Under the pieces are notes generated by a model, which had not been told where the DNA came from, did not search any database, and was given only the letters and a program-made list of their open reading frames with translations. From a virus: 47,109 nucleotides of DNA. The stretch's first letter is position 1. Every line of letters begins with the position of its first letter. The stretch lies in the IMG/VR virus record IMGVR_UViG_3300005518_000020, positions 1 through 47,109 of that record; one strand, 5' to 3'. Positions 16,596 through 46,700 of this stretch are shown in pieces. A program made the translations under genes and the position numbers.

Positions 16596-16828
16596 TATGT
16601 GGGACCTTTACGCCCCCTTGAGATGGACGGGTAGGCCAGGCCGCTGTTTGGATTCTTATGCATTCTTTCCAACGGCTGCGCTGGTGATGGTGTTGGTTTG
16701 TGAAACTTTGGTTTTATCGGTTCGATTGGTGAGTAGTTATATCTTGGCTGCCCTTCCTGAATTTCGGCTAACGTACTCTCCACATCACGCTGAACTCTAG
16801 CGGACGGTTTCATCTTTTCCATTGTCAT
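16595..16828 (-). CDS. Small basic Pro-rich protein between terminase and portal (77 aa)
   Basis: A 77-residue, Pro- and Lys/Arg-rich, largely disordered protein (PIEPIKPKFHKPTPSPAQPL). Its ATG at 16828 overlaps the stop of the terminase nuclease gene (ATGA), and its stop touches the portal start, so it is translated as part of a coupled series. Function unknown. A packaging accessory role is only a guess from location. Confidence 0.6.
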   Translation of the reverse strand: MTMEKMKPSARVQRDVESTLAEIQEGQPRYNYSPIEPIKPKFHKPTPSPAQPLERMHKNPNSGLAYPSISRGRKGPT

Positions 16829-17940: not shown

Positions 17941-17941
17941 A

Positions 17942-18766
17942 TTAGGCCGCGTCTATCAGATCGTAGCAAATTCGGTAGAAGAAGTTCTTCCCGTTGGCCG
18001 AACTCACAATAATATACTTACCACCACCGTCAATCGTGGGTTTGGCTGCCTTGTAGGAATCCTCGTGCTTTGCCTGGAACGCGCCTTCGTCTGCCATAAT
18101 GGCAGAAGCTGTGTGCTGGCGTAGGATATCCGGCCCTTGCGGGATTCCCCAAATGGTGGAACCATTTCCCACCAGAAGCTTGTTATACGGCATAATTGGC
18201 ATTTTCTTGCGAAGCGGGGCCGCGGACTGGATCCACCAAGGAAGGTGTGTATAGGTATGCTTTACTCTATCTATAAGGGCGACCGCGTCATCTTCCTTCT
18301 TGGATTGCAGGAAGATAAGCCGGTGTTGGTTGAACAAGGCCATATGCAGCAAGTAACACAAAACTGTCCAGGTAATCATGATCTGTCTGGATTTCGGTAT
18401 GGCTACCAACTGGTTCCTTGCCAATTCGCGCAAGACATATACTATATACCGCTTACGCGGAAATCGTTTCACGGGGTGCCGTGCATCATGCTCATCTTTG
18501 GTAAAGCAGTGTGTCATTACAAAGTACGCCGGATACCGTTTACATCGTAAAAGTTCCGCCTGTACCCTCGCAACGTCCCCCTCATTGCAAAGGTCCAGGT
18601 GCCGGTCTATATCTACACCGGCAGTCGCATCGCCTCTCGCTGGTCTTAACTTGGAAGGAAGTGGCCATACCCAAGGGAGATCCTCCTGGCGGAGATGGGT
18701 TTGCCGGTTGGCATGGGGTGAAACTTTGCCTGTTGGGCTATATTGTGGGATAATTGCAAGGTTCAT
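17942..18766 (-). CDS. Large terminase, ATPase half (274 aa; split TerL)
   Basis: The product contains the packaging motor: a Walker A-like AIPKSRQIMITW (residues 123-133), a Walker B SAIMADEGAF (Asp226, Glu227) and the coupling motif region YIIVSSANGKNFFY (residues 251-264). It ends at residue 274, just where a normal terminase would run into the nuclease domain, which is encoded by the next gene one base further. Its ATG at 18766 overlaps the stop of the upstream gene (ATGA). The deviant Walker A (KSRQ instead of GxGKS) occurs in other large terminases. The protein would hydrolyse ATP to drive DNA into the prohead, with the nuclease half supplied separately. Confidence 0.85.
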   Translation of the reverse strand: MNLAIIPQYSPTGKVSPHANRQTHLRQEDLPWVWPLPSKLRPARGDATAGVDIDRHLDLCNEGDVARVQAELLRCKRYPAYFVMTHCFTKDEHDARHPVKRFPRKRYIVYVLRELARNQLVAIPKSRQIMITWTVLCYLLHMALFNQHRLIFLQSKKEDDAVALIDRVKHTYTHLPWWIQSAAPLRKKMPIMPYNKLLVGNGSTIWGIPQGPDILRQHTASAIMADEGAFQAKHEDSYKAAKPTIDGGGKYIIVSSANGKNFFYRICYDLIDAA

Positions 18767-26127: not shown

Positions 26128-27492
26128 GTGGCTTACGAATTCCAGTCCCGCATTCTTAACCAAATCAACACACGGAATCACGTGTCCCTTATCCTTCCAA
26201 TGGGCGCAGGGAAGACCCGCATTGCGTGCCTTTGGGCAGATGGTAAACCAGCAGGACCACGATGGGTTGTTTGTCCACCAGTCGCTATGCCGGTTTGGCA
26301 GGAGGAAATTTGGAAGTGGTTGAATTTACGAGCGTGGCTGGTCGAGGGTTCTAGAGCCAACAAAATATCGTACCTTCGTTCCGGATGGAACGGTTGGTTG
26401 ATAATCTCATATCAAACCTTCCGTTCACTTCAGAACTATATGTTCAACACGGACCCCCCGTTGGTTGCCGTTCTTGACGAGTCCCAAACAATCAAGAACC
26501 CCAAGGCCCAGGTGACCAAGGCGACCCACGCTTGGCTGAAAAACGTTGCGTTCAAGGCCATCTTAACGGGAACGCCGACGAGCCAGTCAGAGCTTGACCT
26601 TTGGTCCCAGTGGTACTTCCTGGACAAAGGCGCAACCTTCGGTACTTCCTTCTACGGGTTCCGGCAATACTACTTCGCCCCGGATAACATGGGATGGAAT
26701 TGGACCTTAAAGGCAGGAATGGCCCGTATTATTAATGCCAAGATGCTTTCCACAGGACCCATAATGCAGGAGGAAGAGATAGACCTGCCACCGCAAACAT
26801 ATTCCAGGGTATACGTGGAGCCTTCAAAGGCGCAAAGGAAACACTATGACGCAATTCTCAAGGAGTTTAGGACCGCTTCTTCAAGGACAGGTGAGACCAT
26901 CGTCGATACTCAGTGGGCTTTCGTACAACTGCTCCATCTGCGGCGCATATGTTGTGGATTCCTCAAGGCCGACGATGGAACTATGTACAAACTGTCGACG
27001 GAGAAGTACACCACGCTTCTTGGGCTACTTGACGAGTTTCTACCGAAGTATAAAGTCGTTATTTGGACGACGTGGATAGCCGAAAGGAAAGCCGTATCCG
27101 ATGCCTTAAAGGCGAAGGGGATTAACCATGTGGTATACCGGGGAGGCATGGCAACAAGAGACCGTAGAGAAGTTGTTCGACGATTTCAACAGGATCCTAC
27201 CATACGAGTCTTTCTCGGTTCAGTTTCAGCGGGTGGTAAAGCAATTACACTATCTGCGGCGTCAAGGGTTATTTACACCTCGAACACGTATAGTGTTGAC
27301 ACCCGTCTTCAATCAGAAAAGAGAACTCACCGAATTGGTTCTGAAATTCACAAAAGAATCCACTACACCGACATTCTCACTAAAGGAACCGTAGAGGAGG
27401 ATATCCTTTCCGCACTACAGACCAGGAAGTTAACCAACGAGATGCTTCTTAAGAGGCATCTCCTTTCCAAACTACTTGAGGGTGCCAGATGA
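26128..27492 (+). CDS. SNF2/SF2-type helicase (454 aa)
   Basis: The protein has the two RecA-like lobes of a superfamily 2 helicase. Walker A is PMGAGKT (residues 24-30), motif II is DESQ (117-120) within VAVLDESQTIKNP, and motif III is LTGTPTSQSE (about 147-156). In the second lobe are VIWTTWIAERKAV, FLGSVSAGGKAITLSAASRV (motif V) and RLQSEKRTHRIG (motif VI). The order and the DESQ/IKNP signature are those of compact SNF2-like phage helicases. GTG at 26128 has GGAGGG upstream. It probably remodels or unwinds DNA at replication or recombination intermediates. Its stop overlaps the lipoprotein gene. Confidence 0.85.
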   Translation: MAYEFQSRILNQINTRNHVSLILPMGAGKTRIACLWADGKPAGPRWVVCPPVAMPVWQEEIWKWLNLRAWLVEGSRANKISYLRSGWNGWLIISYQTFRSLQNYMFNTDPPLVAVLDESQTIKNPKAQVTKATHAWLKNVAFKAILTGTPTSQSELDLWSQWYFLDKGATFGTSFYGFRQYYFAPDNMGWNWTLKAGMARIINAKMLSTGPIMQEEEIDLPPQTYSRVYVEPSKAQRKHYDAILKEFRTASSRTGETIVDTQWAFVQLLHLRRICCGFLKADDGTMYKLSTEKYTTLLGLLDEFLPKYKVVIWTTWIAERKAVSDALKAKGINHVVYRGGMATRDRREVVRRFQQDPTIRVFLGSVSAGGKAITLSAASRVIYTSNTYSVDTRLQSEKRTHRIGSEIHKRIHYTDILTKGTVEEDILSALQTRKLTNEMLLKRHLLSKLLEGAR

Positions 27493-29178: not shown

Positions 29179-29206
29179 TGATGTTTCGCAAATGGGAGGG
29201 CACCCC

Positions 29207-30184
29207 ATGTTGAAAGTTTGGACGCAATCAGCGTATCAAACCAGCCAGGAATGCCTGGAAAAGTTCCGACTTGCCTACCTAGAGGGTGGGCATGGTCTCA
29301 AATCCCGTGCACCATCGCAGCCGATGTGGTTCGGTACGGTGGGGCATGAAGTTATAGCCGGATTATATTCACCGCATGTCAAGGAGTTAGAAACAGAATT
29401 CACCGACGCCACCATTGATAGGCGGTACAAGGAACTCCTTCAAGGGTCCATTGGTACCGACTACCAACAGGTAGAAGTCGACAAGGCAGCCCTTAAAGGG
29501 TTGATGCGAGGGTACCGAAATGTCTACAGAAAGGAACTCGAAGGTCGTTCCGTACTCGACTTTCGTTACCAGGAGAAAGAGCTTACTTGGAATCTCGCAC
29601 TACGAGGACGCACTTACGTACTTACTGGGAAGCTTGACGCGGTATCGGTACATAGAAAATCCGCACGACACTACATCGTTGAACGAAAGTTCCCTGGACA
29701 ACTTTCTAAGAACTTCGTGGATGACATGGAAATGTCCCCGCAGACCCCGTGGTACCTCATCGCCTACTGTGAAACCTATAACCCTAAAAGAGTTGGCATC
29801 CTATACGACTATATTCGACGACCGGGTATCCGTCAGCGAAAAGGCGAGTCAAAGGAGGGGTTTATTCAGCGTGTCTTCAAGGAGTCCACGACCCGTCCAG
29901 AGTTTTACTTCTACCGAGCCTTCGTTCGGAAGTCCCCGCAAGATATCCTCATGCTTAAGCAGGAGATCGTCAACCAGATTCATCTGATGGAATATGTGTC
30001 CGACAAAGGCCTTTGGTCGAAGAACCGAAAGGCCTGTCTGGCCCGTGGCAGATGCCAGTTCCTGGACATCTGCGCCCACGGTCAGATTCCACAGGTGATG
30101 GCCATGTTTGAGAAGAAACGAACTGAACATGAAGAACTTAACGACGTAGTGGAGGGTACCCGTGCTGCCGTTAAAGAAAAGTAA
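29207..30184 (+). CDS. Cas4/RecB-like Fe-S exonuclease (325 aa)
   Basis: I choose ATG 29207, with GGGAGG nearby and about 22 bases after the promoter start. The PD-(D/E)xK nuclease core is visible as LTGKLDAVSV (Asp144) and IVERK (Glu159, Lys161). Four Cys have the AddB/Cas4 arrangement: one near the N-terminus (Cys16 in SQECLEKFR) and three at the end with C-x5-C-x5-C spacing (277, 283, 289), which usually ligate a 4Fe-4S cluster. The family degrades DNA ends to make single strands. It overlaps the Sak4-like gene by 23 bases, making a recombination cassette with the SSB-like gene. Confidence 0.8.
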   Translation: MLKVWTQSAYQTSQECLEKFRLAYLEGGHGLKSRAPSQPMWFGTVGHEVIAGLYSPHVKELETEFTDATIDRRYKELLQGSIGTDYQQVEVDKAALKGLMRGYRNVYRKELEGRSVLDFRYQEKELTWNLALRGRTYVLTGKLDAVSVHRKSARHYIVERKFPGQLSKNFVDDMEMSPQTPWYLIAYCETYNPKRVGILYDYIRRPGIRQRKGESKEGFIQRVFKESTTRPEFYFYRAFVRKSPQDILMLKQEIVNQIHLMEYVSDKGLWSKNRKACLARGRCQFLDICAHGQIPQVMAMFEKKRTEHEELNDVVEGTRAAVKEK

Positions 30185-30899
30185 GCCGCAGATGAATCCC
30201 CTGGCCTACACTACCTTGATGCACGGACCACCCAAGATTGGAAAGTCGGAGTTCTGGTCTAATACGGACGCCCTTTACCTTGATGCCGGTAACAACCTGA
30301 AGCATCTTGAGGTATACAAGAAACGGGTGGACGACTGGCCCGCTGTGAAAGCCGCGCTCAAGGATGTCTGGAAGCTTATCCAGAAAGGTAAGTGCCCGTA
30401 CAGTGGTATCATCTGGGACGAAACCGGGATGATGTACGACATGGCCTTTACCTACACCTGCGAGAAGCATGGCTTCGAACATCCTGCCGACGAAGCTTAC
30501 GGAAAAGGATGGGAGAAGATCAAGTTCGAGTTCCAACGCGTGGTGAACTTTTCCTGCCGTATGCCTATTGGTACCGTATTCCTTGCACACAGTATCGAGA
30601 AGGATATCGAGGAGCGTACCGGCAAGGTGACACGAATCCAGGCTGACCTTAAAGGAGGATGCCGGAATGTAATTCTGCCCCAGGTTGACACCATCCTGTA
30701 CGCAGGGTTCTCACCTTCAGATGGAGAGACCCGTCTCCTTTACACCACAGGTACGGAGAAGATTGAAGCCGGTAGCCGCGGTAAGAAGTTGTTCCGGTTA
30801 CCGAAGCGGTTGCCGTTCAGTTATCAGGACTACATGGACGCCATCAAAAAGTCTGCCCAACCCAAGGCACCAAAAACAGCCACAAAGGGAGGTAAGTAA
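30162..30899 (+). CDS. Sak4-like RecA-fold ATPase / annealase (245 aa)
   Basis: GTG at 30162 has GTGGAGGG just upstream and lies within the end of the nuclease gene. Walker A is GPPKIGKS (residues 22-29), Walker B is GIIWDET (Asp86, Glu87), and a second motif, TVFLAHSIEKD, follows at about residue 140. The size and layout match phage nucleotide-binding proteins of the Sak4/AAA_24 group, single-strand annealing or RecA-like recombinases. The C-terminus is Lys/Ala-rich (PKAPKTATKGGK). Neighbours (exonuclease before, SSB-like after) fit recombination-dependent replication. Confidence 0.8.
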   Translation: MLPLKKSKPQMNPLAYTTLMHGPPKIGKSEFWSNTDALYLDAGNNLKHLEVYKKRVDDWPAVKAALKDVWKLIQKGKCPYSGIIWDETGMMYDMAFTYTCEKHGFEHPADEAYGKGWEKIKFEFQRVVNFSCRMPIGTVFLAHSIEKDIEERTGKVTRIQADLKGGCRNVILPQVDTILYAGFSPSDGETRLLYTTGTEKIEAGSRGKKLFRLPKRLPFSYQDYMDAIKKSAQPKAPKTATKGGK

Positions 30900-31372
30900 T
30901 GTCCACCGAGTTCCGCAAGAAGCTGTCAAAACTGGAGAAGACCTGGAAGACCGCGAAGGGTAACCAGGAGGCTACCTTCAAGAAGGTTCCCCCAGGAAAG
31001 TACATTACCAAGGTGCATTCCGCACAGCTTGGAATGTCGAAGAACAAGGACAACCCAAGGATGCAGGTTGCCTGGGACTTCAGGGTGATCAAAGGTGATC
31101 ACCTCAACGAACACATCATGACGTGGGACGGCATCGAGAGCGACAACGGGATGTCCATCGTGAAGGGCCGTCTCGAGGCCCTTGGTGTTGAACCGCCCGC
31201 AAAGCTTGCCGATATCGCAGAGGCCCTTGACAACGCCTGTGATATCAAGTGCCTTCTGTCCGTGAAGAAGGCCAAGGGTGCGGGCGACTTCCTGAACGTG
31301 ACCATCCTGAAGCGTCTCAAGAAGAAGAAGTCCAGTGGGGATGACTCGGCGTCGGAGACTGCTGGCCTCTAA
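30899..31372 (+). CDS. DUF669-like single-stranded DNA-binding protein (157 aa)
   Basis: The start follows GGGAGG and touches the previous stop. Residues about 30-75 (VPPGKYITKVHSAQLGMSKN, then NPRMQVAWDFRVIKGDH) have the PxGxY...K.A.....K...NP.....F.V..G pattern of phage DUF669-type SSB proteins. MTWDGI..DNGMSIVKGRLEALGVE follows, and a basic then acidic C-terminal tail (KRLKKKKSSGDDSASETAGL) as in many SSBs. It probably coats single strands made by the exonuclease. A structured RNA lies directly downstream. Confidence 0.75.
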   Translation: MSTEFRKKLSKLEKTWKTAKGNQEATFKKVPPGKYITKVHSAQLGMSKNKDNPRMQVAWDFRVIKGDHLNEHIMTWDGIESDNGMSIVKGRLEALGVEPPAKLADIAEALDNACDIKCLLSVKKAKGAGDFLNVTILKRLKKKKSSGDDSASETAGL

Positions 31373-31484: not shown

Positions 31485-31499
31485 TTTCCCTACTGGAGG
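31458..31499 (+). promoter_or_regulatory. Possible anti-Shine-Dalgarno switch before the primase gene
   Basis: CCTCCAG at 31458-31464, part of arm 3 of the cloverleaf, is exactly complementary to CTGGAGG at 31493-31499, the ribosome binding site of the GTG at 31504. Formation of arm 3 would leave the site free; opening it would allow the site to be masked. This is inferred from complementarity only. Confidence 0.45.
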
Positions 31500-31503
31500 A
31501 TAC

Positions 31504-34293
31504 GTGAGACGAGACCTGAAGGCGTTGTTGCTGGAGAAGGTCAATCCTGTACAGGTTTACGAAGATATCTTAGGCGGGTATGAGTCCGGTCAAAACGTTC
31601 TGTGTCCTTTTCATAGCGACAGTAATCCCAGCGCGAGCGTTCGGGAGAAGGACGGTGCCTTTTATTGCCACTCCTGCGGAAAGAAGTTTTCATCCTTTGT
31701 TGGGTTCTTTGAGGCCTACTATAAGATACCATACCAGACCGCGATGCACAGGTTACACCACCGTTACATTGCACCGGTTGTGCCTTTAAGGAGAGTCTAT
31801 GGGTGGCACAAGGAACTCTGGAAAAGGAAGAAGGTCATTGAATACATCGAAGACAAGAGGGGTATCAGCGAAACCACTATCAAGTTCTTCAAGCTCGGCT
31901 GGAATGGTGAAAGAATTACTATTCCGATATTTAATGAATACGGAACCTGTCTTAACGTTCGTCTGTACCATCCCAGGCGAACACCTAAAATTATCTCTTT
32001 TCGTAAAGGTTATGGCAGCGCCCGCCTTTTCCCTATTGAGAAGTGGAGAGAAGACGAGCAGGAAACCATTCTCGTTGAAGGTGAATGGGACGCTATCCTA
32101 GCGTGGCAGATGGGCTACAACGTGTTAACTTCAACGGGCGGGGCCAACTCATGGACCCCTCAATTTTCGAAGCTCCTAAAGGGAAAGGACGTGGTGATAT
32201 TCTATGATGCTGACAAAGCTGGAAGAGAAGGGGCTAAACGAGTTGGGAAATCAATTAGCGGAGTTGGAAAAACAGTATCAATCGTTTCGGAAAAGCCGCG
32301 AGGGGTTAGGGAAACCTCTAAGGACCTTTCAGATTATGTCGTTAAAGATGGAATCAATACACAATCAATCAGCACACATCTTAGGCATTCTGAGCATGTT
32401 GGAGGTGTTAATGGTTCTAAGAGAGTCGAATCCGAAACCGAAGAAACCATCGAGGTAAAAATCCATGATGCCTCTAAAAGCAGTATATTCTATCGTCCGA
32501 TACGGACAACAGCACACGTGGCCGGAAAACGACTCACCCCATACCTTCCGCCAAAGAAAGTTCGAATCAAATGCCGTATGGATAGAGGCAAACTTTGTCA
32601 AACCTGCCACATGTTACCACACAAGGGAGTGCGAAGTTTTGATTTCAAGGCTACAGACTCAAGAGTACTTGGCCTCATCGATTCCTCCGATTTTTCAATC
32701 AAACGAGTTGCTAGAGACATTGCAAGAATACCACCAGGTTGCACAACGACTGTCGAAACTCTTAGCACCTTCAACATAGAGGAAATTACAGTCATCCCAC
32801 CCATAGATGAGGCGGGCGGGCATTACACCGCCCGTCTTGCTTACTATATAGGCCACGGTCTCCCATCCAATAGGAGCTACTCCTTTGAAGGCTACACGAT
32901 CCCGCACCCGAAGGACCAAAGTGCCACACATATTTTCACCGAAGCAATCCCCGCTCAATCAAGCCTTGAAACATATATCGCAAAACCAGGAATACTCGAA
33001 CGTCTTCGACGATTTAACCCTGGAAGTGGAAGGATTATTACACGACTTAAAGACATTGAAGAATATCTATCATCGAGCGTTACAAGAATCATTAACAGAC
33101 GCTCAATGCACCTCGCTATTGACCTTGTATTTCACTCACCCATTCGATTTGTTTTCAACGGTGAACTCGTTAAAAAAGGATGGCTTGAAGTTGCCGTTAT
33201 CGGTGACACTCGATGTGGTAAGGGATATGTTGCAACTGAGCTCGTTCGGTTCTACGGCCTTGGAGAGATTGCAACTGCTGAAAACTGTTCTTTCGCTGGC
33301 CTCGTCGGTGGAATAATGAAGTCCGGTAATAACATGTCTATCACCTGGGGTTTGATACCCCGTAATACGGGCAGACTTGTTATTATCGACGAGACCAGCG
33401 GCCTTTCCACCAGCGACATTGCACGTATGACCCGTGTCCGTAGCGAGGGCATCGCAGAGATATACAAGATTCAGTCTGAAGCAACCCAAGCCAGAACCCG
33501 TATCGTTTGGCTGTCGAACGCACGGACAGGCCGACCCGTTAACACCTACGCATATGGTGTGGAAACTGTACCGGAGCTTTTCGGAAAGTCGGAGGACGTA
33601 TCCAAGTTGGACTACGCCCTGGTTGTTTCTTCAGGAGAAGTCAAAGCGGAGGTTATCAATGCCTACAGGCACCCGTCAAAGGACGAGGAAGAAGTACCCT
33701 ACGAACGAGAGGATTTTAGGAACCTTATCATGTGGATATGGACACGTACTGAGGATCAAATCTTCTTTACTCCAGAGGCCACGGAGCTCATCCTTACTTC
33801 AGCTATGCATCTTGGGAGGAAGTACCACCCTTCAATCCCACTTATCCAGATTGAAGACGTTCGAATCAAGCTTGCTAAACTTAGTGCAGCAATTGCTGGA
33901 AGAATCTTTAGTGCTGATAAGTCGGGTACCTCCCTACTCATCACAAAAGAATGTGTCGAAGTTGCCCTGTCCTTTTTGTCCTCCATCTACGATAGGCAGC
34001 CAACTTCGTACCTCAACTACAGTGAAAATCAGTACGCCGCCACGACCATTCCGAATGAAGCGGCCGTAACGAGGTTGCTTTACGAGGCCGGTAAGTACCG
34101 TGCCAGTTTGGTACAGGGTCTCCTTGACACCAAGACCCTAGGCATTACGGACGTAGCCGACTTTATGAACTGCGACAAGTTCGTAGCCAAGGAGTTGATA
34201 GGTGAACTTGTCCGTGCAAGGTGCCTTCAGAAGGAGTACAGTTTCTACGTGAAACGCCCGGCGTTTATCAACCTGTTAAGGGGGATGGTATGA
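31504..34293 (+). CDS. Primase (CHC2-Toprim) fused to MCM-like AAA+ helicase (929 aa)
   Basis: GTG at 31504 follows GGAGG by five bases. The N-terminus is a DnaG-type primase: CHC2-like zinc site Cys34, His37, Cys55, Cys58; Toprim motifs VEGEWDA (Glu192) and FYDADKAG (Asp235, Asp237). A linker (about 260-350) leads to KCRMDRGKLCQTC (Cys357, 365, 368), like the zinc site before an MCM N-terminal fold. Walker A is GDTRCGKG (567-574), then AENCSFAGLVGG, Walker B LVIIDET (Asp629, Glu630) and sensor 1 LSNA (Asn672). SKLD (700-703) stands where MCMs have SRFD, so the arginine finger is Lys. The end (about 830-929) resembles a winged helix. Most phage primase-helicases use RecA/DnaB-type motors. It should prime and unwind at the fork. 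Confidence 0.8.
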   Translation: MRRDLKALLLEKVNPVQVYEDILGGYESGQNVLCPFHSDSNPSASVREKDGAFYCHSCGKKFSSFVGFFEAYYKIPYQTAMHRLHHRYIAPVVPLRRVYGWHKELWKRKKVIEYIEDKRGISETTIKFFKLGWNGERITIPIFNEYGTCLNVRLYHPRRTPKIISFRKGYGSARLFPIEKWREDEQETILVEGEWDAILAWQMGYNVLTSTGGANSWTPQFSKLLKGKDVVIFYDADKAGREGAKRVGKSISGVGKTVSIVSEKPRGVRETSKDLSDYVVKDGINTQSISTHLRHSEHVGGVNGSKRVESETEETIEVKIHDASKSSIFYRPIRTTAHVAGKRLTPYLPPKKVRIKCRMDRGKLCQTCHMLPHKGVRSFDFKATDSRVLGLIDSSDFSIKRVARDIARIPPGCTTTVETLSTFNIEEITVIPPIDEAGGHYTARLAYYIGHGLPSNRSYSFEGYTIPHPKDQSATHIFTEAIPAQSSLETYIAKPGILERLRRFNPGSGRIITRLKDIEEYLSSSVTRIINRRSMHLAIDLVFHSPIRFVFNGELVKKGWLEVAVIGDTRCGKGYVATELVRFYGLGEIATAENCSFAGLVGGIMKSGNNMSITWGLIPRNTGRLVIIDETSGLSTSDIARMTRVRSEGIAEIYKIQSEATQARTRIVWLSNARTGRPVNTYAYGVETVPELFGKSEDVSKLDYALVVSSGEVKAEVINAYRHPSKDEEEVPYEREDFRNLIMWIWTRTEDQIFFTPEATELILTSAMHLGRKYHPSIPLIQIEDVRIKLAKLSAAIAGRIFSADKSGTSLLITKECVEVALSFLSSIYDRQPTSYLNYSENQYAATTIPNEAAVTRLLYEAGKYRASLVQGLLDTKTLGITDVADFMNCDKFVAKELIGELVRARCLQKEYSFYVKRPAFINLLRGMV

Positions 34294-34712
34294 GGGAGAC
34301 TTGGTACATTGCGGCACCGTTCTTCACGGACAAGCAGAAGCAGAGGATTCACAGGGTAACAGAGGTCCTTAAGCATCATGGTATCATGGCGTACCTTCCC
34401 ATGGAATTCATGGTCCTTAAGCCCGACGCCACTAAGGAGGAGAAGCGAAAGGTCTTCCATGAGAACGTCCGGCAGATTGCCAAGGCTGACCGAATCCTAG
34501 CCATTCAGGATGAGAAGGACACCGGTACCATATGGGAGATGGGTGCCGCGTACATGCATGGCACCGAAGTAGTAATGGTTTACGTGGACCCCGTGCCCCA
34601 GATTAACGTAATGCTGGAGATGGGTTCCTACGTTTGCTGCAATGGAATATTCCTGCTTGAGAACTGGCTCCGAACCGGCACCATACCCGAAACCCACGCA
34701 ACCACCCAGTAG
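34290..34712 (+). CDS. Nucleoside 2-deoxyribosyltransferase-like protein (140 aa)
   Basis: ATG 34290 overlaps the previous stop (ATGA). The start reads MRETWYIAAPFFTDKQKQRI and the middle has ADRILAIQDEKDTGTIWEMG, which match the nucleoside 2-deoxyribosyltransferase fold (phosphate/sugar loop near YIAAPF; acidic residues Asp74 and catalytic-type Glu83 in the D..DTGT..E.G pattern). Such enzymes move deoxyribose between bases or hydrolyse deoxynucleosides. It begins a run of nucleotide-metabolism genes and may feed an altered or salvaged base into the pool. Substrate unknown. Confidence 0.75.
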   Translation: MRETWYIAAPFFTDKQKQRIHRVTEVLKHHGIMAYLPMEFMVLKPDATKEEKRKVFHENVRQIAKADRILAIQDEKDTGTIWEMGAAYMHGTEVVMVYVDPVPQINVMLEMGSYVCCNGIFLLENWLRTGTIPETHATTQ

Positions 34713-34720
34713 GAGGCATT

Positions 34721-35329
34721 GTGGAACGCTTAAATATGAGGAAGGTACTAATGGGTTCTACGATACGAGCGGCGCACATACATAGGTATAGTTCTATACC
34801 TATCCTACTGAAGGAGAGTGTGGCGGAACACAGCTTCTACGTTGCACTATACGCGCAGATCCTTTCCGACTACCTGAGGTTAGGATGGGACGACAGGCGA
34901 CTTGCCATTGAGTCAGCCCTTCTTCACGACATCGAGGAATCGTTGACGGGCGACTTCCTTCGCTCCTTCAAGAAGAGTAACCCCACCTTAGAATACGAGA
35001 TCAAGAAGGCCGCGGAGCAATGCGCCTTTAAGGTCATCTCTGAGGCGTTCAACCATGCCGATGCACCACCGACCTTCTTCTGGAAGGGTGCGAAGGTACA
35101 GTCCCCTTCTGGTAGGATTGTCCAAATCGCGGACTTCCTCTCCGTAGTCTCCTATCTGTGCAAGGAGGCCGCACTTGGAAATAAGTACGCGATGGCCATG
35201 ATGGAAACGGAACTGATGCAATACCTTAGCCTGTTCCGCAACGCAGGGTTCACGGACTTCCAAGACATCTTGGACGAAGTGGAAGGCATCATCAGGGAGG
35301 GGTGGAAGCATGTCACAGTCACAGTTTGA
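34721..35329 (+). CDS. HD-domain phosphohydrolase, YfbR-like (202 aa)
   Basis: GTG at 34721 has TAGGAGG just upstream. HD motif residues are visible: ESVAEHSFYVA (His37), ALLHDIEESLTGD (His69, Asp70) and IVQIADFLS (Asp about 137). The R...R(Y/W) pattern before ESVAEHS and the overall length are those of YfbR-type 5'-deoxyribonucleotidases, which dephosphorylate deoxynucleoside monophosphates. It overlaps the next gene by 20 bases. In this context it may remove a normal dNMP or help balance the pool for a modified base. Confidence 0.8.
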   Translation: MERLNMRKVLMGSTIRAAHIHRYSSIPILLKESVAEHSFYVALYAQILSDYLRLGWDDRRLAIESALLHDIEESLTGDFLRSFKKSNPTLEYEIKKAAEQCAFKVISEAFNHADAPPTFFWKGAKVQSPSGRIVQIADFLSVVSYLCKEAALGNKYAMAMMETELMQYLSLFRNAGFTDFQDILDEVEGIIREGWKHVTVTV

Positions 35330-35981
35330 GCATGATATACAGGAGTTTTTTGCACATTGTAGGGACAAGTTCGACAGCCGTGGAAAGAAGTACAACTCCG
35401 AAGAGACTGAAATCAAGGACTACCATATCTTCGGAATTCGTTCGGTGTTCCAACATGTGTGGGGAAAGGCACTACGCCTTAAGACGCAGATGCTTTCCCA
35501 ACCGCAGTTGGTAGCGTTCCAAACCACGGACTCTGAGGGACCCGGGATAATGAACGACCTTGTAGACTTAGTGGTCTACGCGGCAATCTTCTATGCCGAG
35601 AATAGGAGACAACTCAAGGTTCTTTACCAGGAAAAGATGTTGGAGGAACTAGATGCACAACCACAACCGGCCATCCGTTTCGCTACTGTCAATAACCCCG
35701 GATCCACTGACCCTGCTGTGGAACGCGTGGTACTGGACCCGGGACAGGGGCAAAGTTCTCGTGGGGCATCAGGATCGGACCATGAATTCAACCCAGTACA
35801 CGAAGCTTGTCCAGCATGCGCTGATGTGCTTAAGGGAGCACGTCCCGATACCGGAGATGGTCCACATGACATGGGGGATATCCAACATCCCGAGGGCACT
35901 CCAGGAACAGATGGTTCGTACTCGGAAGGCGGCGTTCTTCTGCGAGACGATGAGGGTGGTGGACAAAAGCCGGTTCGCTGA
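35310..35981 (+). CDS. Nmad1/DUF1599-like protein with long out-of-frame overlap (223 aa)
   Basis: GGAGGGGTGGAAGC precedes the ATG. The first 115 residues fit the DUF1599/nucleotide-modification-associated domain 1 pattern: FGIRSVFQHVWGKALRLKTQ, then GIMNDLVDLVVYAAIFYAEN, an all-alpha MazG-like fold. From about residue 125 the protein is Gly/Asp/Pro-rich and disordered, and this part (35653-35981) overlaps the ThyX-like gene in another frame. The ThyX frame is clearly the conserved one there, so the tail is probably a by-product of the overlap rather than a functional domain. Such proteins occur near base-modification enzymes in phages. Confidence 0.65.
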   Translation: MSQSQFEHDIQEFFAHCRDKFDSRGKKYNSEETEIKDYHIFGIRSVFQHVWGKALRLKTQMLSQPQLVAFQTTDSEGPGIMNDLVDLVVYAAIFYAENRRQLKVLYQEKMLEELDAQPQPAIRFATVNNPGSTDPAVERVVLDPGQGQSSRGASGSDHEFNPVHEACPACADVLKGARPDTGDGPHDMGDIQHPEGTPGTDGSYSEGGVLLRDDEGGGQKPVR

Positions 35982-36426
35982 CAAAGAAGCCTACTTCGTC
36001 CCGGAGGGACTTGAGAAGAGCTTCACCTATCATGAGTTTATGCGGATGTCACAGAACACGTATAAACTTATGATGGGTGCCGGATTTCCACCAGAGCATG
36101 CGAGAGGTGTGCTCCCGATGCATGTTCACACCTCCCTCGTGATGGGTCTGGACCTGAGGGAGTTCACCCGCATGATGGGCAACCGTACCTGTTGGATTGC
36201 CCAGGGTTCGTACTGGCGGCCTGTAATCGATCAGTTCCAGAAGCAATTACTTATGTGGTTAGGAAGGGAGGTTTGTGACTACATCTTCAACCCGCCGTGC
36301 GAAAGGACGAACCCCCACTGCATCATGCCAGACGAAGCTGAACATCGTCTCGCCGGGGAAAGCCCATATAAGCCTTGCCCCAAGTACACTGAAGAAATTA
36401 GAAAGGTTAGTAGCCAGAAAAGGTAA
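35653..36426 (+). CDS. ThyX-like flavin-dependent thymidylate synthase homologue, divergent signature (257 aa)
   Basis: ATG 35653 has TTGGAGGAACTAG directly upstream, a strong site inside the preceding gene. The N-terminus NRPSVSLLSITPDPL matches the ThyX start. GISNIPRALQEQMVRTRKAA holds the signature region and HARGVLPMHVHTSLVMGLDL the C-terminal ThyX block. In place of RHRxxSxNxxSxR it reads RTRKAAFFCETMR (residues 89-101): first and third Arg and the last Arg are kept, His becomes Thr, the two Ser become Ala and Thr. The fold should be the same, but substrate or chemistry may differ, for example modification of another pyrimidine. Its end overlaps the polymerase gene by 152 bases. Confidence 0.75.
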   Translation: MHNHNRPSVSLLSITPDPLTLLWNAWYWTRDRGKVLVGHQDRTMNSTQYTKLVQHALMCLREHVPIPEMVHMTWGISNIPRALQEQMVRTRKAAFFCETMRVVDKSRFADKEAYFVPEGLEKSFTYHEFMRMSQNTYKLMMGAGFPPEHARGVLPMHVHTSLVMGLDLREFTRMMGNRTCWIAQGSYWRPVIDQFQKQLLMWLGREVCDYIFNPPCERTNPHCIMPDEAEHRLAGESPYKPCPKYTEEIRKVSSQKR

Positions 36427-38458
36427 GTACCTAGCGATAGACACCGAAGGTAAGGAGAGGGCCTTTGCCTATTCATTCTGCAACGAGTATGGCGACAGCG
36501 TTGCCATCCGACACGGCGACGTTGAACAGCCTTGTCTGGCTTGTAAAGGCAAAGGAAGTTGGTTACCCTCGAAGGTCACCAGAATACCACAGCTTTGGAG
36601 CGTCCAGGAGTGCGTAACTTGCAATGGTCGGGGGGTCGCCCCCGGCCATGCGTTGGCTAAATGGGTCGCCAAGCGACTTTGCGAAGACCCCTCCACCATA
36701 AAGATATTCCACAATGAGAAACATGACAGAAGAATCCTCCGACGAGAGGGAATTAGAACAGCAGGAGTCACCCACGATACAATGCTCATATCATACGCCC
36801 TTGACCCTAGACGGCCTCACGGCCTTAAGGAACTTACTCAGCTCAAAATCGGGGAGGGAGTCGGTGAACGCGACGCGGTTGTTGAATGGATTAAACGAAC
36901 TCACAAAGATATTGTCGCGGAATGCAGGAATGTTGGATACTATAGAATTTGCGGTCGAATTGAAATTGACCCTACGAAAATAATCTGGGAGGAGAAGGGC
37001 CTTAAACGCCGTAATGGATGGGAGTACGTGCCCTGGTCCGTCATGGGTCCATACGCAGAGGACGACGCCAGGAAAACCATCAAGTTGTTTTTCTACTTCC
37101 GCAAGCATGTGAAGAAGAAGCCGTATATCACTGTGTACCTTAAGGAGAAGAAGCTTCTTCCTGTCGTTGGCAAGATGGAAGATACCGGTATGCTTTGGCA
37201 TATGCCAATGGCGTATCGTCTCCTTAAGATCATTAACATGGACCGGAACAGCTTTCAGAAGGAAGCCTTTAAGCATGCGAAGAAGGAATTCAATATCCTT
37301 AGCGGTAAGCAATTGGCTAACGTTCTCTTCTCCGATTTGGGTATGGAAATTATGGAGAAGACTGCGAAGGGCAACCCGTCTCTAGACAAGGACCACTTGA
37401 TGTTATACGATCATCCACTTGCTACCGCTGTCCTTCGATTCAGGATGGCGAAGAAGATGGATGGCTACATGCGGAACTTTATTCGTTCCGCTAGGAGGGA
37501 GTCCGATGGCTGGGTCATTCATCCGAATCAATTGCAGCATGGTACTATCACCGGGCGCTTTAGTATTATCGACCCACCCTTACAGACCACCCCGGCTATT
37601 GATACTGGGCGTAGATCACATTACATCATCGACATACGTCGCTGCTTTGTCCCTCGCCGAAACCATATACTATATTTCTTTGACTACTCTCAGATCGAAA
37701 TTAAACTGTTCGCCTATTTTACTCAAGACCCCTATCTTATCGGACTTATCAAGGAAGGCCGCGACTTTCACGGAGAGGTTGCGGCTGAGGTTACTGGAGT
37801 CAAAGAAGGTACAGACGAATTTTCACACGTCCGGAAAATGACCAAGATGGTTAACTTTGGCATCATCTTCGGTGCCGGGGAGGATAAACTTGTCCAGATT
37901 ACTCACGAGGATCGCGGGAAGATTCACGAGTTCAATGAAAGATATCACGAGCGCCTTCCGAGCGTACGTGAGTTCATGGAGAAGACAATATTCGAAGCAC
38001 GAAGAAATGGATACATTGACACCGAATTTGGAAGGCGTATCCCCGTTGACGGAAACAGAGCCTACGCCGCCGTCAACTATAGGATACAAGGAACGGCAGC
38101 GGATATCCTTAAGCAGGCAGCTATCGACAGCGCAAGATATGCGGAAACATTCGGAGGAAAACTATTGCTTACTATGCATGATGAGACGATCCTTGAAATT
38201 CCAGAGGGGGCTGAACATACTACTCATATCCATAATCTTCGGACTACTCTGGAGCGGTGGGACTCCCAATTCGGACTACCTATCAATACCGACTGTGCTG
38301 TTGGCGCTGTTAGCTGGTCTGATAATGATTGTGTAAAGGTGGAAGGAGCCAAGAATTATGAGACTGCTATCAATCGATCCATCACTGAGGCACTGCGGAT
38401 ACGCGATCTTCGACGGGCCGACCCTCCAAAGCTACGGGATCTTAGAATCATCCGTTGA
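36275..38458 (+). CDS. DNA polymerase, family A, with DnaJ-like zinc insert in the exonuclease domain (727 aa)
   Basis: GTG 36275 has GGGAGGTTT before it and is the only start ahead of exonuclease motif I, so the gene overlaps the ThyX-like gene by 152 bases. Exonuclease residues: Asp56/Glu58 (LAIDTEG), HNEKHD (146-151), Tyr260/Asp264 (PYAEDDARK). Between motifs I and II are CLACKGKG (Cys87, Cys90) and CVTCNGRG (Cys113, Cys116), two CxxCxGxG motifs as in the DnaJ zinc centre, not expected in this family. Polymerase motifs: A FFDYSQIEIK (Asp470), B RKMTKMVNFGIIFG (Arg520, Lys524, Phe528, and Phe where Tyr is usual), C TMHDETILEI (His635, Asp636, Glu637). It replicates the genome. Confidence 0.9.
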   Translation: MTTSSTRRAKGRTPTASCQTKLNIVSPGKAHISLAPSTLKKLERLVARKGKYLAIDTEGKERAFAYSFCNEYGDSVAIRHGDVEQPCLACKGKGSWLPSKVTRIPQLWSVQECVTCNGRGVAPGHALAKWVAKRLCEDPSTIKIFHNEKHDRRILRREGIRTAGVTHDTMLISYALDPRRPHGLKELTQLKIGEGVGERDAVVEWIKRTHKDIVAECRNVGYYRICGRIEIDPTKIIWEEKGLKRRNGWEYVPWSVMGPYAEDDARKTIKLFFYFRKHVKKKPYITVYLKEKKLLPVVGKMEDTGMLWHMPMAYRLLKIINMDRNSFQKEAFKHAKKEFNILSGKQLANVLFSDLGMEIMEKTAKGNPSLDKDHLMLYDHPLATAVLRFRMAKKMDGYMRNFIRSARRESDGWVIHPNQLQHGTITGRFSIIDPPLQTTPAIDTGRRSHYIIDIRRCFVPRRNHILYFFDYSQIEIKLFAYFTQDPYLIGLIKEGRDFHGEVAAEVTGVKEGTDEFSHVRKMTKMVNFGIIFGAGEDKLVQITHEDRGKIHEFNERYHERLPSVREFMEKTIFEARRNGYIDTEFGRRIPVDGNRAYAAVNYRIQGTAADILKQAAIDSARYAETFGGKLLLTMHDETILEIPEGAEHTTHIHNLRTTLERWDSQFGLPINTDCAVGAVSWSDNDCVKVEGAKNYETAINRSITEALRIRDLRRADPPKLRDLRIIR

Positions 38459-40248: not shown

Positions 40249-40769
40249 ACGATTGGTCCAGTACCTTTATATGCCTGGTAGTATCCGGCTATTCGTTCTA
40301 CGTAATCGGTTGTTTCCCTCGCGTTCGCCGGACCCGTGACAAGCTCCAGAACCTTTACGATATCCGACCACTTGTCATTCCAAAGGCCACGAGACTTGGA
40401 TAGGTCTCTAGCCTTTAGGATGTTACCCTGCCCGGCGTTATAGGAGCCGAGTATGAAACTGTAGATTTCATCCTTTGGTGTGGCCCTTGTTGACCAAAAC
40501 CCGAAAAGGAAGTTAAGGTACCATACCCCACCTTTGATATTCTTGTAGATATCGTACCCATCTACTTCGCCGTCAACCCACTTATCTGTGGCGGGCATCA
40601 ACTGCATGAGACCCATTGCCCCAGCACTAGACCGTGCTATCGGATTAAAGGCGCTCTCCTGCTTCATGACGGCCTTTACAAGCAGCCAATCAATAGAGGA
40701 TTCTTTCGGCACAATGCTTTGGATGAGCCCATCGTAAACTGATTCCAACAACGAGGTTTCTATCTTCAT
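40245..40769 (-). CDS. Lytic transglycosylase (SLT family), probably virion-associated (174 aa)
   Basis: The SLT motifs are clear: VKAVMKQESAFNP with catalytic Glu38, SAGAMGLMQLMPAT, YNAGQGN at about residue 123, and YVERIAGYY near the end. These enzymes cleave the glycan strands of peptidoglycan. There is no signal peptide. The ATG overlaps the stop of the giant virion protein (ATGA, 40769-40766), so it is likely made with the ejection proteins and used to open the wall at infection, or serves as the lysis enzyme since no other endolysin is visible. Confidence 0.85.
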   Translation of the reverse strand: MKIETSLLESVYDGLIQSIVPKESSIDWLLVKAVMKQESAFNPIARSSAGAMGLMQLMPATDKWVDGEVDGYDIYKNIKGGVWYLNFLFGFWSTRATPKDEIYSFILGSYNAGQGNILKARDLSKSRGLWNDKWSDIVKVLELVTGPANARETTDYVERIAGYYQAYKGTGPIV

Positions 40770-43700
40770 TTCAGCCCCTGCAGTTTCTCCGGTATTCTGG
40801 TCTTCTTCCGTAGTATCTTCCGCATGAAGTCAGCTTCTTCTTTCTTGTTGAAGGGCCGCTCCAAATCCTTCATCGCGAAGGCACGGAACTCCGGTTTAGA
40901 CGCTACGTCACGATTGAATTTGCCGCTCTCACCCTGCTCTAGCTCCATGTCCATCTTATCTTGCCAAGCATTCAAGTCTTCCACAAAGTTTATGTTGGCT
41001 GCCATGACCTTTAAGAAGGCAACAAGGGCGGACTGCGGATACTTAGGTTGCCCGGTCTTGGGGTCCATGATGAACTTCGGGTGGATGATGTCGTTGGTTC
41101 CATACTGCGCGGCGATCTGATTGAACCGGATGAAGTTAGACACGTCCTTGGCGATATCCCAGACTTGGGTTTGCCGCGCCAGATGTTCCCAGAGAGGTGG
41201 GGCCACCCCCGGCTGCCTCACCACTTGGCCGTCGTCGCCAATGTAAACGCGTGTCCCGACGGAGGTATCCATGGTGTTCGGGTCACTGAACGGTTTGCCG
41301 GTGAACATACTGTTCCCAGTCGCCCTTTCGATACCCACTGTAAGGAGAGGGTGTAGTCCAGGCAAACGGTTCCCACCCTGTTGGGTGAACTGAATCAAAC
41401 TCGCCGGCAAGTTGAAGACATCAGCGAACGGGTTGAATGATTTGGTGCTTGCGAAGGCCACGTCCGAATTGTTCTGCAGGTTCTTCCGCCACGAATCCGG
41501 CAGAACGATACGGCCCTGCATGAAGTTCTCCATATCCTTGTATTCGATACCCATCTCCGCGAATTGGTCTTCCACAGCATCCTGACCAATCCTGCCTAGA
41601 TGGCCGAATACGAAAGACTTGTACCGGTGCTTTACCGGCAGACTGTAAGCCAGGGTATTGATATGCTTGTACCAGTTCCAGAAGGGTACAATTCTTCGGA
41701 CCCAACGGCGTTCGATTGGATCCAGACGCTGGTAGTTTCCTAGGAACTCCCATGCCCCTTCCAGAGCATTCTTCTGAAGCTGGAGCATTTCTGGCGTACC
41801 GGCTTGCTTCATCTGACCCAAGGCTCCGGCCAGTTCATCCAGATATTTCTGGCTACGGTAGAACCGGAACCCGGAGTCCTTCATGATATACTTACGGGCT
41901 TGCTTCTCTGCGGCCTTGAAGTATCCGGCCTGTAGGTAGAAGTCTTCTACCTTACGGTTGATGCCATACATTGCGTCGAACACCGCAAAAGTACGAGATG
42001 TAGGTTTAGCCCGACCAAGGAGGAATTCGTCAGCGGTTGATGCGTAGAGACCAGTAGTAGAAAGTTCGTCAGGGTAGATGTTTTCGAACATTTTCATCTT
42101 AGATCGCATGTAATCCCATGGCATTACTCCGGCCATAGAATTTAGAAGAGTGTTGCTTACCAGATTGTTGAGGATCCACCTTGGTGAAATCGCCAAGGTC
42201 AGTGCCCGCCACCAGTCCGTACCCCTATCGAACCACCGTATCCAGTTCGGCACAATGCCAGCGGACACGTGTGCATAGATGGCATCGGCTAGTTCCTTTG
42301 GGATCTGATGAAGTTCGTTCTTGTAAGCCATTGTTACGGACGATTGCATCTTGGGAATGTGTTCCTGTATAGCCTTAAGAAAGGTTTCATCCGCGACGTA
42401 TCCGGCCTTCTGAATAGTCTTCTTGAAGGTATTAAGGAAGTCAATGTTCTGCGTGTGGAACTGCATCAACCCTTCGTAGTTGAAGGGGACATGTCCTTCA
42501 AGGATAGTGTCCGGGTCACCGTTCCAAGGCTTAGCCCTGCCACTATCCCTGATCTTCTTCACCATATCCATGTTGGCTTCGTACCGGTGAACTTCCCTGG
42601 CGGCCTTTATAGACACCAACTCCGGGTCATTCACCATGTAGCCCCATGCGTTAGTATGGGTACGAAGGAAATCCGGTCTCTTGATTGACGGTGTGATCTT
42701 GCCGCCAGCCAACCCTGCAATCCAATTACGTGTGGGCTGCCCATACACGATCTTGTGATACTCCCCGGCTTCGTCGTAGAAACCAGTGTAGCCCTTCTTG
42801 TAAAGTTCCTTGATGAGTCCTGTCTTCACGTCCTGCGTAGCACCCAAGGAGTTCTTCATATCTGCAAGAAGAAGCTTCCCCTCCGGTGACCTTGCGTCCA
42901 GAATGATGTGACGCTTCTCCCACATGTGCGGGTAGTAGCCTGGTCTCGAGAGTTTGCCTTCAAGGGACTTACCTGCCGCGATACGGATAAGGTCAGCTGC
43001 CGTTAAGGCGTCCTTACCGAACAATTGTTGCACCACAAACGGGGTAAGGTCGGAGATCTCCGGCGACTGCTTACGAACGTAGTTGTAGGCCTGGAGTAGA
43101 TCCTGTATCTGACGGCGAACCGGTTTAGGTACACCGTTGTCAATCAACAGCATCTTCACGGTATCCATATTAAAGGTTTCGCCAGGACCTACAAGGTACG
43201 ATTTGGATGCCGCAATCTTCTGTAGTGCTTCCCTCATAGGAGGGTCGTTCTTGATAGCGATGTTCAGTTGAGTTATAATAGCATTCGCGGAAGCCGTGTC
43301 CCTGCCCATAGTAGGCTTAAGGATACGGGGCACGTCTATTTCTTTTCCTTTTATAACTGGTTTACCAAGTAGGTCCGCACGCATTTCACTTACTTCGATA
43401 TCCGTTTTTAGGTTTTGTACTCTCTTCCAATAAGAAGAAACTTCTGGGATAGCCATTATCTCTGGACTTGGTTTATAAAGAGGACTCTCTTCAATATTTC
43501 GTTTCACCTCATCAATTACTGTACGGGCCGGGGCCTTTTCAACCATCCGTCGTTCCGCCCCGCCGGGTGCGCCTTTGGATGGTTCAGGAGCAGGCTTCGA
43601 CGTGACGTTGGGGGGTGGGGCCGTGTCGGGTTCAGCCCAGTTTGTACGAACGTCAGACGCGTCGAGCTCCACTCCCGCTTCGAGTTCCTTGATACGCCGT

Positions 43701-46700
43701 TGAATCCTAGTGGCGTCCTTACGGAAGCCTTCCAAATCACGTACTGCTTTATTGTAGGCTACCGCACGCCTACGGAGATCCGTGATTTCCCCAAGTACGT
43801 TTCCTGCGGTTCGTGCTCCTACTGTCCCACCTTTAGCTTGTATCTGAGCCACTTTCTTCGCACGACGAATAGGATTCTCAATCGATTGAGCCTCTCTAAT
43901 TTCCCTACGGATCTGCTCAGATCGAGCGGCCTTTGCAAGTTTTGGGTCCTGAAGTAGTTTGGCTTCGTTCTGTAGCTCCTTGATGTGTCTATTGAACTTC
44001 CCCCTATCGATGGTTCCCGTAGTTTCGTTGATGACATTACGTGGGATACGGGCAGCCGCCGCCACGTTCTCCCTATCCTTGATAAGTTCCATGATACCCT
44101 TACCCGGTTCCCCGGCAGGTTTCTTTTCCCCGGTTACAGTATTGATTTTCTTGTACGTTCCTTCAAGCTGCAATTTCAACTGTTCAATGGCATACTGTCG
44201 TTCCAACTCTGGCCTGGTAATGGCACGGCCCATGCTTTCAGCCAGGAGTTGCTCCCGCATGTGAACGGTGAGATGCCGTCCCGGACGGGTTTCCATCTGG
44301 TCAAGGGCACCGATGGCCCAGGAGTGTACATTCATGAAGTCATTGATGTCCCGCTCAAAGTTGGCGGCTATAATAGCGTCCTCAGTAGTCTCCACGTCCA
44401 TAGCACCAAGGGTGGACTGAAAAGCCTTCGGGTCCATCTCTGCCATCTCACGGACAGTTTTAGCCTCCAGTCTTAATTCATTCAGCCTTTGAACTGTACG
44501 TTCAATAGCCTTTTCCCTGGCTACCGCGCTCATGGTTTCCGGGTTGCTACGAGTAAGGTACCGCTGATAATCAGAAGCTTGGCGGTCACCCTTCATCCAC
44601 TGCTTCGAATGAAGTATGGTAACCCTGTTACCACCACGAGTGGTAATCTTGTGTTTATAGAATGGATTTACCAAAGGGTCATTCAAGAGGCCATCGGTCC
44701 ATTCCGCTACCCTATCATAAATCGGCTGCACCACTCCTTCAAAGGTAGCCGTTCTATCCAGTTCCTTCGCAAGGGTATGCATTCTGAAGACAGTGTTCGA
44801 TATTTGCCGACTAGTCTCCGGGTTAATACGGATCTTCTCACCACGTTCGAGAGGTGCTCGAATATCTTTGATGATATTCTCAATTTCTTCTGCCGTAGCA
44901 TTCACCATAATAGCACGGGAGTCAGCATCAAGATCAGCCCACTTTGGTGCCGAACTCTTTATATCTGCTGGTGCATCGCGATACCCTAGTTCATACCGGT
45001 ACTTAGCGGTCTTTTCGGCCATCTTCTCTATACTGGCCTGGAGACCAGTAGCCTCGGTATGGGAATAGGTACCCCTGTAGATTTCACTGGTGATGCCTTT
45101 TCCTTTGGATGGCTTAAGAAGTGCTACCTGCCCTGTAGAAAGTCTATAAATAGATTCTGCCGTATCGGGGTCAATGTCCCTTGAAAGGAGATCCTCCTCC
45201 ATGATGACCTTCTTCGGCTTTCGATGGATACCCTGTTTGCCGAGAGAGATCTCTCCTTCAGCAGCCAAAGCTTCGGCAACCTCATCACCATAGGCTCCGG
45301 CCCGTGCGGCCTGTTCTTCCATGGTGAGAGTCTGGTACTCTGTCTCTACGGGCAGTCGCCGTGTGATATCGATTGGTGACGAGGGACCAAGGCTGGTCTC
45401 CGACTTCGCCTGTTCCACCAATTCCTTGAATGTCACCTTTAACTTCCTCAGTTCCGATATCATGACATTCTTTTCTGCGATAGGTGGAACTGCGTGACCA
45501 ACACGGTTAGTCACCCTGTAAAGGAAATCTTCTCGAATTTTGATTGCATCATGTAGGTCTAGAAGCCGTCGCGCCGCCACTGGATTGACGCGTGCCATAC
45601 GAACAATGGACTCTGTACCGGCATGTTCAGCAGCAGTCTGGATCTCTGGTGACACAAGGCGATTCTCCGCGCCTTGAAGGAACTGATCAAGTTCATCACC
45701 AGAAGTACTGATGGCTGTCTTGACCTTGGCTTGGGTTACATAGTCACGAAGGAATTCTTCTTCATCACGGCTAAGTACCGGTCCCGAAGGTGGTGCACCC
45801 TTTGGTTTCTTTCGCATCAGGGTGCCTTTTACTTCGGTTCCCGGTTCAAGAACAATACGATCTCCCTCCTGCCCTGGAGACGAAAGGATCTTCCCTTCGA
45901 CACGTTCCTTCCCTGCCTGGTACCCTGCTGTGGTCATGATCTTGGTGTAGTTACCCTTCTGCATAGAACCACGTTCCCGTACCAGGTATTCCACACCATC
46001 TTCAGTTACGAAGATATCGCCTTTCTTTACGGTCGAATATAGATCCTGTCCTTCTGGAATGGCTACATTATTATAGCGTATATCCTTTCCGGTTGTACGT
46101 TTGATGTTCTCCGCGATGGCGTCGTCAACTTTCGACATCTCTTCATGAAGTTTTTCGACACCTTTACCCTTCGCTAATTCCGCCTGTACACCCAACTGAG
46201 AACGCTTTTTACCAAGGTTGACGATCTCCTGGGCATCGGCGTGGGATAGAACAGCTGCGATAGGAGTAAGTTCCTGTGCCTTCTTTGCAGCCTCCTCGGC
46301 CACAGTCTCTTCAGATATAAGGACAGTGCTAGCAGCATTCTCCTGTGCGACTTTTAAAGCCGAACCAACTTCCTGCGGAGTGCGTGCAGCTATGTTCTCC
46401 ACTAGAGAATTCAATTCAGCCATCGTCAGCCCAGTGGCATCCATTAAAGGCTGCCACGTACGCTTCAAGTATTCCTGTGCATCCGCGAGTCCTTTACCAG
46501 ATAGTCGTTGATGGGTAAGGTCCCAGTACTCCGAATACTTCTTGATAGCTTCGACAAGTGCGCCATCCTTATCTACGGGGTTCGCCAATCCTTCAATGGT
46601 CGCGGCGAAGGCTTCCTTTTCCTTTGGCTTTAATTTTTCGAAGATACCCTGGAATTGTGCCGACGATCCCTTTAGATTCTTGGCGAATTGGTTATAGGAT

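Follow-up and report, generated by a model that had tools for sequence, protein, structure and literature searches.

Does a single polypeptide of a tailed phage join a bacterial-type primase to an MCM-type motor and, if so, does that polypeptide serve as the phage's own replicative primase-helicase? The question is raised by a gene in the window, by which we mean the whole 47,109-base virus contig analysed here, a record that also carries tailed-phage genes for portal, major head protein and terminase large subunit. In the textbook one-piece primase-helicases, a Toprim primase is joined to a RecA/DnaB-type ring, which tracks the lagging strand in the 5'-3' direction. The original prediction for this gene proposed a CHC2-Toprim primase fused to an MCM-type motor, a distinct replisome, and a lysine in place of the MCM arginine finger. 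Coordinates of the features discussed are collected in Table 1.

Table 1. Features of the primase-MCM gene and of neighbouring replication genes, by position in the window
Feature	Position	Strand	Basis or remark
SNF2-type helicase	26128..27492	+	Pfam 8.6e-20
PD-(D/E)XK exonuclease	29192..30184	+	Pfam
RecA-like/Sak4 protein	30162..30899	+	domain/profile matches
DUF669 single-strand DNA-binding-like protein	30899..31372	+	domain/profile matches
Shine-Dalgarno-like GGAGG	31495..31499	+	4 nt 5' of the GTG start of the primase-MCM gene; from sequence
Primase-MCM fusion gene	31504..34293	+	929 aa, GTG start
CHC2 zinc-binding domain, DnaG type (C34, H37, C55, C58)	31585..31773	+	Pfam PF01807, 6.9e-10
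DnaG/Twinkle-type primase core	31801..32373	+	Pfam PF13155 (Toprim_2), 1.8e-9
Linker between primase and motor	32374..32448	+	residues 301-312 predicted disordered (AF2 pLDDT below 50)
MCM N-tier, OB-fold region, Cys site C357, C365, C368, probably C413	32449..33018	+	AF2, Foldseek, Cys conservation
MCM-type AAA+ core and lid, with MCM-like helix-2 and pre-sensor-1 segments	33019..33993	+	profile searches, Foldseek, alignment
Walker A GDTRCGKG, Gly574 replacing Ser/Thr	33202..33225	+	motif alignment; change absent from the original prediction
Walker B LVIIDE, residues 625-630	33376..33393	+	alignment with archaeal MCMs and relatives
Sensor 1 Asn672	33517..33519	+	invariant, 64/64 relatives
Lys701, codon AAG, arginine-finger position	33604..33606	+	alignment with archaeal MCMs
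C-terminal winged-helix-like domain	34051..34290	+	AF2 helices 852-904, then strands 908-917
Family A DNA polymerase with 3'-5' exonuclease	36275..38458	+	Pfam

Both halves of the protein carry their motifs at the predicted places. In the primase half, the four zinc ligands listed in Table 1 are followed by a Toprim domain (residues 187-283) with E192-G-E194 and D235-x-D237, and by these motifs this half looks catalytically complete. The NCBIfam dnaG model TIGR01391 matched the window protein at 3e-26, which is under that model's own cut-off, and PADLOC matched the primase half weakly to the DnaG-like parts of reverse-transcriptase systems and to nothing else. The motor half contains C357/C365/C368, GDTRCGKG (567-574), D629-E630, N672 and SKLD (700-703).

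Is the motor an MCM, or does its AAA+ domain come from another family, such as NtrC, YifB/Mg-chelatase, MoxR, RuvB or D5? Taken singly, the window motor reaches just E 0.09 against Pfam MCM, under the cut-off, and 3 of 41 motors from the family touched Mg_chelatase at 7e-4. However, the relatives turn this weak single-sequence signal into a decisive one, and the MCM assignment is therefore firm. Pfam MCM was matched individually by 34 of the 41 motors (best 3.4e-16), and when a profile of all 41 was searched against PDB, the best 60 of its 74 matches at E up to 1 were all MCM chains, headed at 1.2e-12 by 4fdg, which we take to be Sulfolobus MCM. In local profile-profile comparison with seven archaeal or archaeal-virus MCMs, the score was 180 over 524 columns, against 70, 43 and 27 for the YifB, NtrC and MoxR sets, respectively; for RuvB and D5, the evidence is their absence from the best PDB matches. 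The AlphaFold2 model (mean pLDDT 88) gave the same answer by Foldseek against PDB, the best 50 matches to the full model being all MCM (E 1e-20 to 2e-18). Membership of another AAA+ family is, by every direct comparison, scarcely credible, and the structural and profile checks proposed at the outset thus favoured MCM by a wide margin. With the Pfam matches of the primase half, they bear out the central claim that a bacterial-type primase and an MCM-type motor are fused in one phage protein.

The likeness to MCM extends beyond the ATPase. The N-tier by sequence alone gave a weak MCM match (E 4e-4). Modelled apart from the AAA+ domain, residues 316-505 reached pLDDT 92.9, and the best 50 Foldseek matches to this piece alone were again all MCM chains, which indicates that an MCM N-tier is present and not just an MCM-like ATPase. 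Within it, C357, C365 and C368 are near-invariant, and a further Cys absent from the original prediction, C413, is shared by 48 of the 58 relatives ungapped there, so that the putative zinc site is probably a set of four Cys. The AAA+ core has the MCM motif order, the h2 insert and the pre-sensor hairpin, as judged by profiles, alignment with archaeal MCMs and Foldseek; at the C-terminal end, modelled helices precede a two-strand wing, and the MCM profile alignment reaches into this region. By sequence and predicted structure together, the motor half looks like a complete MCM, with N-tier (Zn/OB), AAA+ and a probable winged-helix-like end.

The motor recurs in about 60 relatives from cultured and uncultured phages, and most of these also share the CHC2-Toprim primase. 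Cultured full-length relatives, at about 30% identity, are from phages of Microbacterium, Bacillus, Arthrobacter, Weizmannia and Paenibacillus, among them gp47 of Microbacterium phage Krampus and gp45 of Bacillus phage BSP7. Among viral contigs, 57 or so had full-length relatives and the alignment scan gave 59 loci; a scan of viral contigs with the single window sequence found no relatives. With the full-length set, a scan of genome contigs yielded one Toprim-MCM, in a Robiginitomaculum MAG, nearly all other matches covering the DnaG-like part alone. The surroundings of the gene also recur: an SNF2-type helicase is encoded upstream, in the same orientation, in 42 of the 64 related loci, and PolA downstream, again in the same orientation, in 30 of them (PolA is present in 30 of the 44 related records). 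Krampus and Wollypog have genes annotated as DnaE-like instead of PolA. A search for DnaB_C found none in the 44 related records, while control genomes gave DnaB_C; most of these records are metagenomic contigs and possibly incomplete, and so absence of DnaB from a record is not absence from the virus. Two of the cultured phages, Bacillus phage BSP7 and Weizmannia phage Youna2 (L003 and L008), have QueC, QueD, QueE and FolE downstream of the primase-MCM gene, queuosine/deazaguanine pathway genes that suggest modified DNA, and both encode the family A polymerase as two separate genes.

Some relatives bear a different primase on the same motor. In L007 (vB_BboS-125), L051 and L063, an AEP primase with the motifs DxD and SGxKGxH replaces CHC2-Toprim; L007 matched DNA_primase_S at 3.9e-10 and MCM at 3.4e-13, and a GenBank note ties vB_BboS-125 to 'MCM family protein'. 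A further scan added about 40 AEP-MCM loci. In one AEP-MCM gene (L142, 5965-10382), AEP motif II is broken by an intein-like stretch and the flanking stop-to-stop frames differ. Homology of the window motor to the AEP-type relatives was found by tblastn and phmmer; the window protein lacks the N-terminal AEP domain and has CHC2-Toprim in its place. We take the AEP-MCM form of L007, L051 and L063 as the BcMCM type, BcMCM being known here from its published description. On BcMCM and its relatives, PMC4538821 cites work by McGeoch and Bell (2005), Samuels (2009) and Sanchez-Berrondo (2012).

In a tree, all phage motors, Toprim and AEP alike, fell in one clade apart from the archaeal MCMs, on a separating branch of over 3 changes per column. 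Because both primases occur on one motor lineage, at least one exchange of primase fold is required. The Toprim/AEP distribution on the tree called for at least 2 changes, and 0 of 200 bootstrap trees had one change, which suggests two separate Toprim acquisitions; a single Toprim clade was not rejected (AU p 0.088) and is left standing. Naturally split versions also occur. In L046, L058 and L056, two overlapping or abutting genes encode the primase plus N-tier and the AAA+ part, cut at the same domain boundary; L046/L058 and L056 sit in different parts of the tree, and the split therefore probably arose at least twice. One contig (L043) has the motor gene and no detectable CHC2 primase.

We turn to the ATP site, where the window copy departs from MCM at two catalytic positions. 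The window sequence EDVSKLDY aligns on LLSRFDLI of archaeal MCMs, placing K701, as had been predicted, in the arginine-finger column (the SRF motif), and no substitute Arg adjoins it. In this phage the Lys might, as the original prediction suggested, alter trans-activation. The lysine had also been read as a mark of the whole system, and that reading failed: all 64 aligned relatives carry Arg, as do the AEP-type relatives inspected, so the family keeps the finger and Lys, peculiar to this phage, is not family-defining. Departures at this site occur elsewhere, since a Halorussus pelagicus plasmid MCM (L193, 1048-3126) has Gln there (LISQFDL). The second departure lies in Walker A, where the window has GKG for GK[ST]; Ser or Thr is found in 60 of the 64 aligned relatives. 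Five relatives (L010, L011, L012, L014 and L022) share GKG with the window, which makes it, unlike K701, a feature of a clade. With G574 and K701 both changed, the label of canonical MCM would be wrong, and the window protein is, as read from its sequence, a divergent member of the phage MCM lineage.

What do these changes mean? K701 could be accounted for by a mistake in sequencing or assembly, since AAG differs from AGG by one base, a transition, and no near-identical contig is at hand for comparison. Yet the same domain departs from near-invariant residues at two more positions, I813 and C817, departures absent from nearly all other complete Toprim-type members, and the TGT codon of C817 is at least 2 base changes from either His codon, which suggests real divergence of the lineage and makes a simple error less likely; we regard it as distinctly improbable. 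If the changes are real, the motor may be weak or dead, since both are at catalytic positions, and the primase alone could be working in this phage. This reading, which we consider unlikely though somewhat less so than an error, draws on the replacement of an Arg invariant in the relatives, on the loss of the Walker A hydroxyl and on the departures at 813 and 817. On the other side, the window motor retains the Walker A Lys and the Walker B DE, along with sensor Asn672, R646 and R666, and the close relatives with GKG keep the finger Arg. Faster decay of the motor than of other genes was also considered and found unsupported: its branch (0.73) is not longer than those of other genes on the same lineage (0.71 to 1.36). 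The likeliest reading of the altered ATP site is a functional but retuned ATPase. The AAA+ domain is interrupted by a frameshift in one close relative of the window (L022, 9968-12810), giving parts of 662 aa and 294 aa.

From the architecture, the homology, the wide recurrence, the replication-module context and a search that found no DnaB, we infer a replicative role, together with hexamer, polarity and priming; in our judgement the phage quite probably uses the window protein as its own replicative primase-helicase. On the leading strand MCM translocates 3'-5', NTD first (PMC12593628), and its N-tier may bar the lagging strand (PMC8426354), and so an N-terminal primase would sit at the lagging-strand exit. 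We therefore picture a six-subunit ring that would sit on the template of the leading strand and, like other MCMs, travel 3' to 5' with the N-tier leading; the lagging strand would be kept out on the N-tier side and primed there by the fused primase. The phage PolA would extend the primers and the DUF669 protein would cover single strands. The fuller proposal, that a DnaG-type primase, carried at the front of an MCM ring, primes the excluded strand, that AEP and Toprim folds have been swapped on one motor lineage, and that the ATP site was rebuilt without the Walker A hydroxyl in a clade and with a lysine finger in this phage, is offered tentatively, at somewhat less than even chances.

As a counterpoint to a fork-helicase role, an SNF2 helicase is encoded nearby and the host DnaB could serve. 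The motor might instead be an origin-binding initiator or loader that opens the phage origin and loads host DnaB, with the Toprim part supplying primers. Phage AAA+ initiators are common, the winged-helix-like end could bind an origin, host DnaB is always at hand, and the catalytic changes of the window copy would matter less. We hold this to be rather improbable in view of the full N-tier and AAA+ architecture, which is that of MCM helicases, the 3'-5' helicase activity reported for the related BcMCM (PMC4538821), and the module itself, in which domain matches recognised no loader-like gene.

How does the proposed primase-helicase compare with known systems? BcMCM resembles it in a homologous motor with N-tier, an N-terminal primase and a place among phage or prophage replication genes; it differs in that its primase has the unrelated archaeo-eukaryotic (AEP) fold, and aligned AEP-MCM members keep the Arg finger and the Walker A Ser/Thr. 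BcMCM-type fusions of Bacillus cereus prophages have been known since 2005, and primase and polymerase activities are reported for BcMCM beside the helicase (PMC4538821). Thus, of the predicted distinct replisome, the CHC2-Toprim/MCM pairing stands, but phage primase-MCM fusions as such are not new; since the same motor also occurs on an AEP primase, the DnaG-type pairing is a module-swap variant. T7 gp4 and Twinkle-type proteins likewise carry a CHC2-Toprim primase ahead of a ring motor on a single chain. The gp4 motor is RecA/DnaB-type, working 5'-3' on the lagging strand, whereas the window motor is MCM-type and expected to run 3'-5' on the leading strand; gp4 encircles the lagging strand (PMC12593628), a layout opposite to that proposed here. 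If, as expected, an MCM-type ring follows the leading strand 3'-5', the lagging strand would be approached by primase and motor from opposite sides of that ring. With archaeal MCM and Mcm2-7 the window motor shares the N-tier, the AAA+ domain with h2 insert, the pre-sensor hairpin order, the arginine-finger position and probably the winged-helix end, but the phage motor is very divergent and fused to a bacterial-type primase. Bacterial mobile elements offer PrimQH-MCM, an MCM with AEP primases (Kazlauskas 2018, PMC5862659), and SCCmec Cch, an MCM-like helicase (PMC7581432); in the available portions of these papers such motors often go with a primase, which is AEP or encoded separately and not a Toprim fusion.

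No description of a Toprim-MCM fusion appeared in the available portions of PMC5862659, PMC4538821, PMC7581432 or the papers reporting the genomes of Paenibacillus API480, Lake Elmenteita and Microbacterium phages; a 2016 survey of replication proteins in viruses (10.1093/nar/gkw322) lay outside this search, and a prior description is possible. Many cultured relatives are annotated simply as 'DNA primase', the name also used in the available parts of their genome papers, and a replicative helicase would thus have been overlooked in those phages. With a single polypeptide, the coupling of primase to helicase on a 3'-5' fork can be tested with no need for Pol alpha, GINS or Cdc45, and the AEP-primase relatives on the same motor amount to a natural swap experiment.

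Other genes of the window deserve brief mention. Between primase-MCM and PolA (34221-36426, + strand) are nucleotide-metabolism genes: nucleoside deoxyribosyltransferase-like, HD phosphohydrolase and thymidylate synthase-like. A 2079-aa ORF (40766-47005, - strand) had no match in PHROGs, Pfam or PADLOC. The terminase large subunit (16825-18766, - strand) is in two abutting ORFs, of which 17942-18766 matches the ATPase side and 16825-17940 the C-terminal part; with TAATATG at the junction, this is either a natural split or a frameshift.
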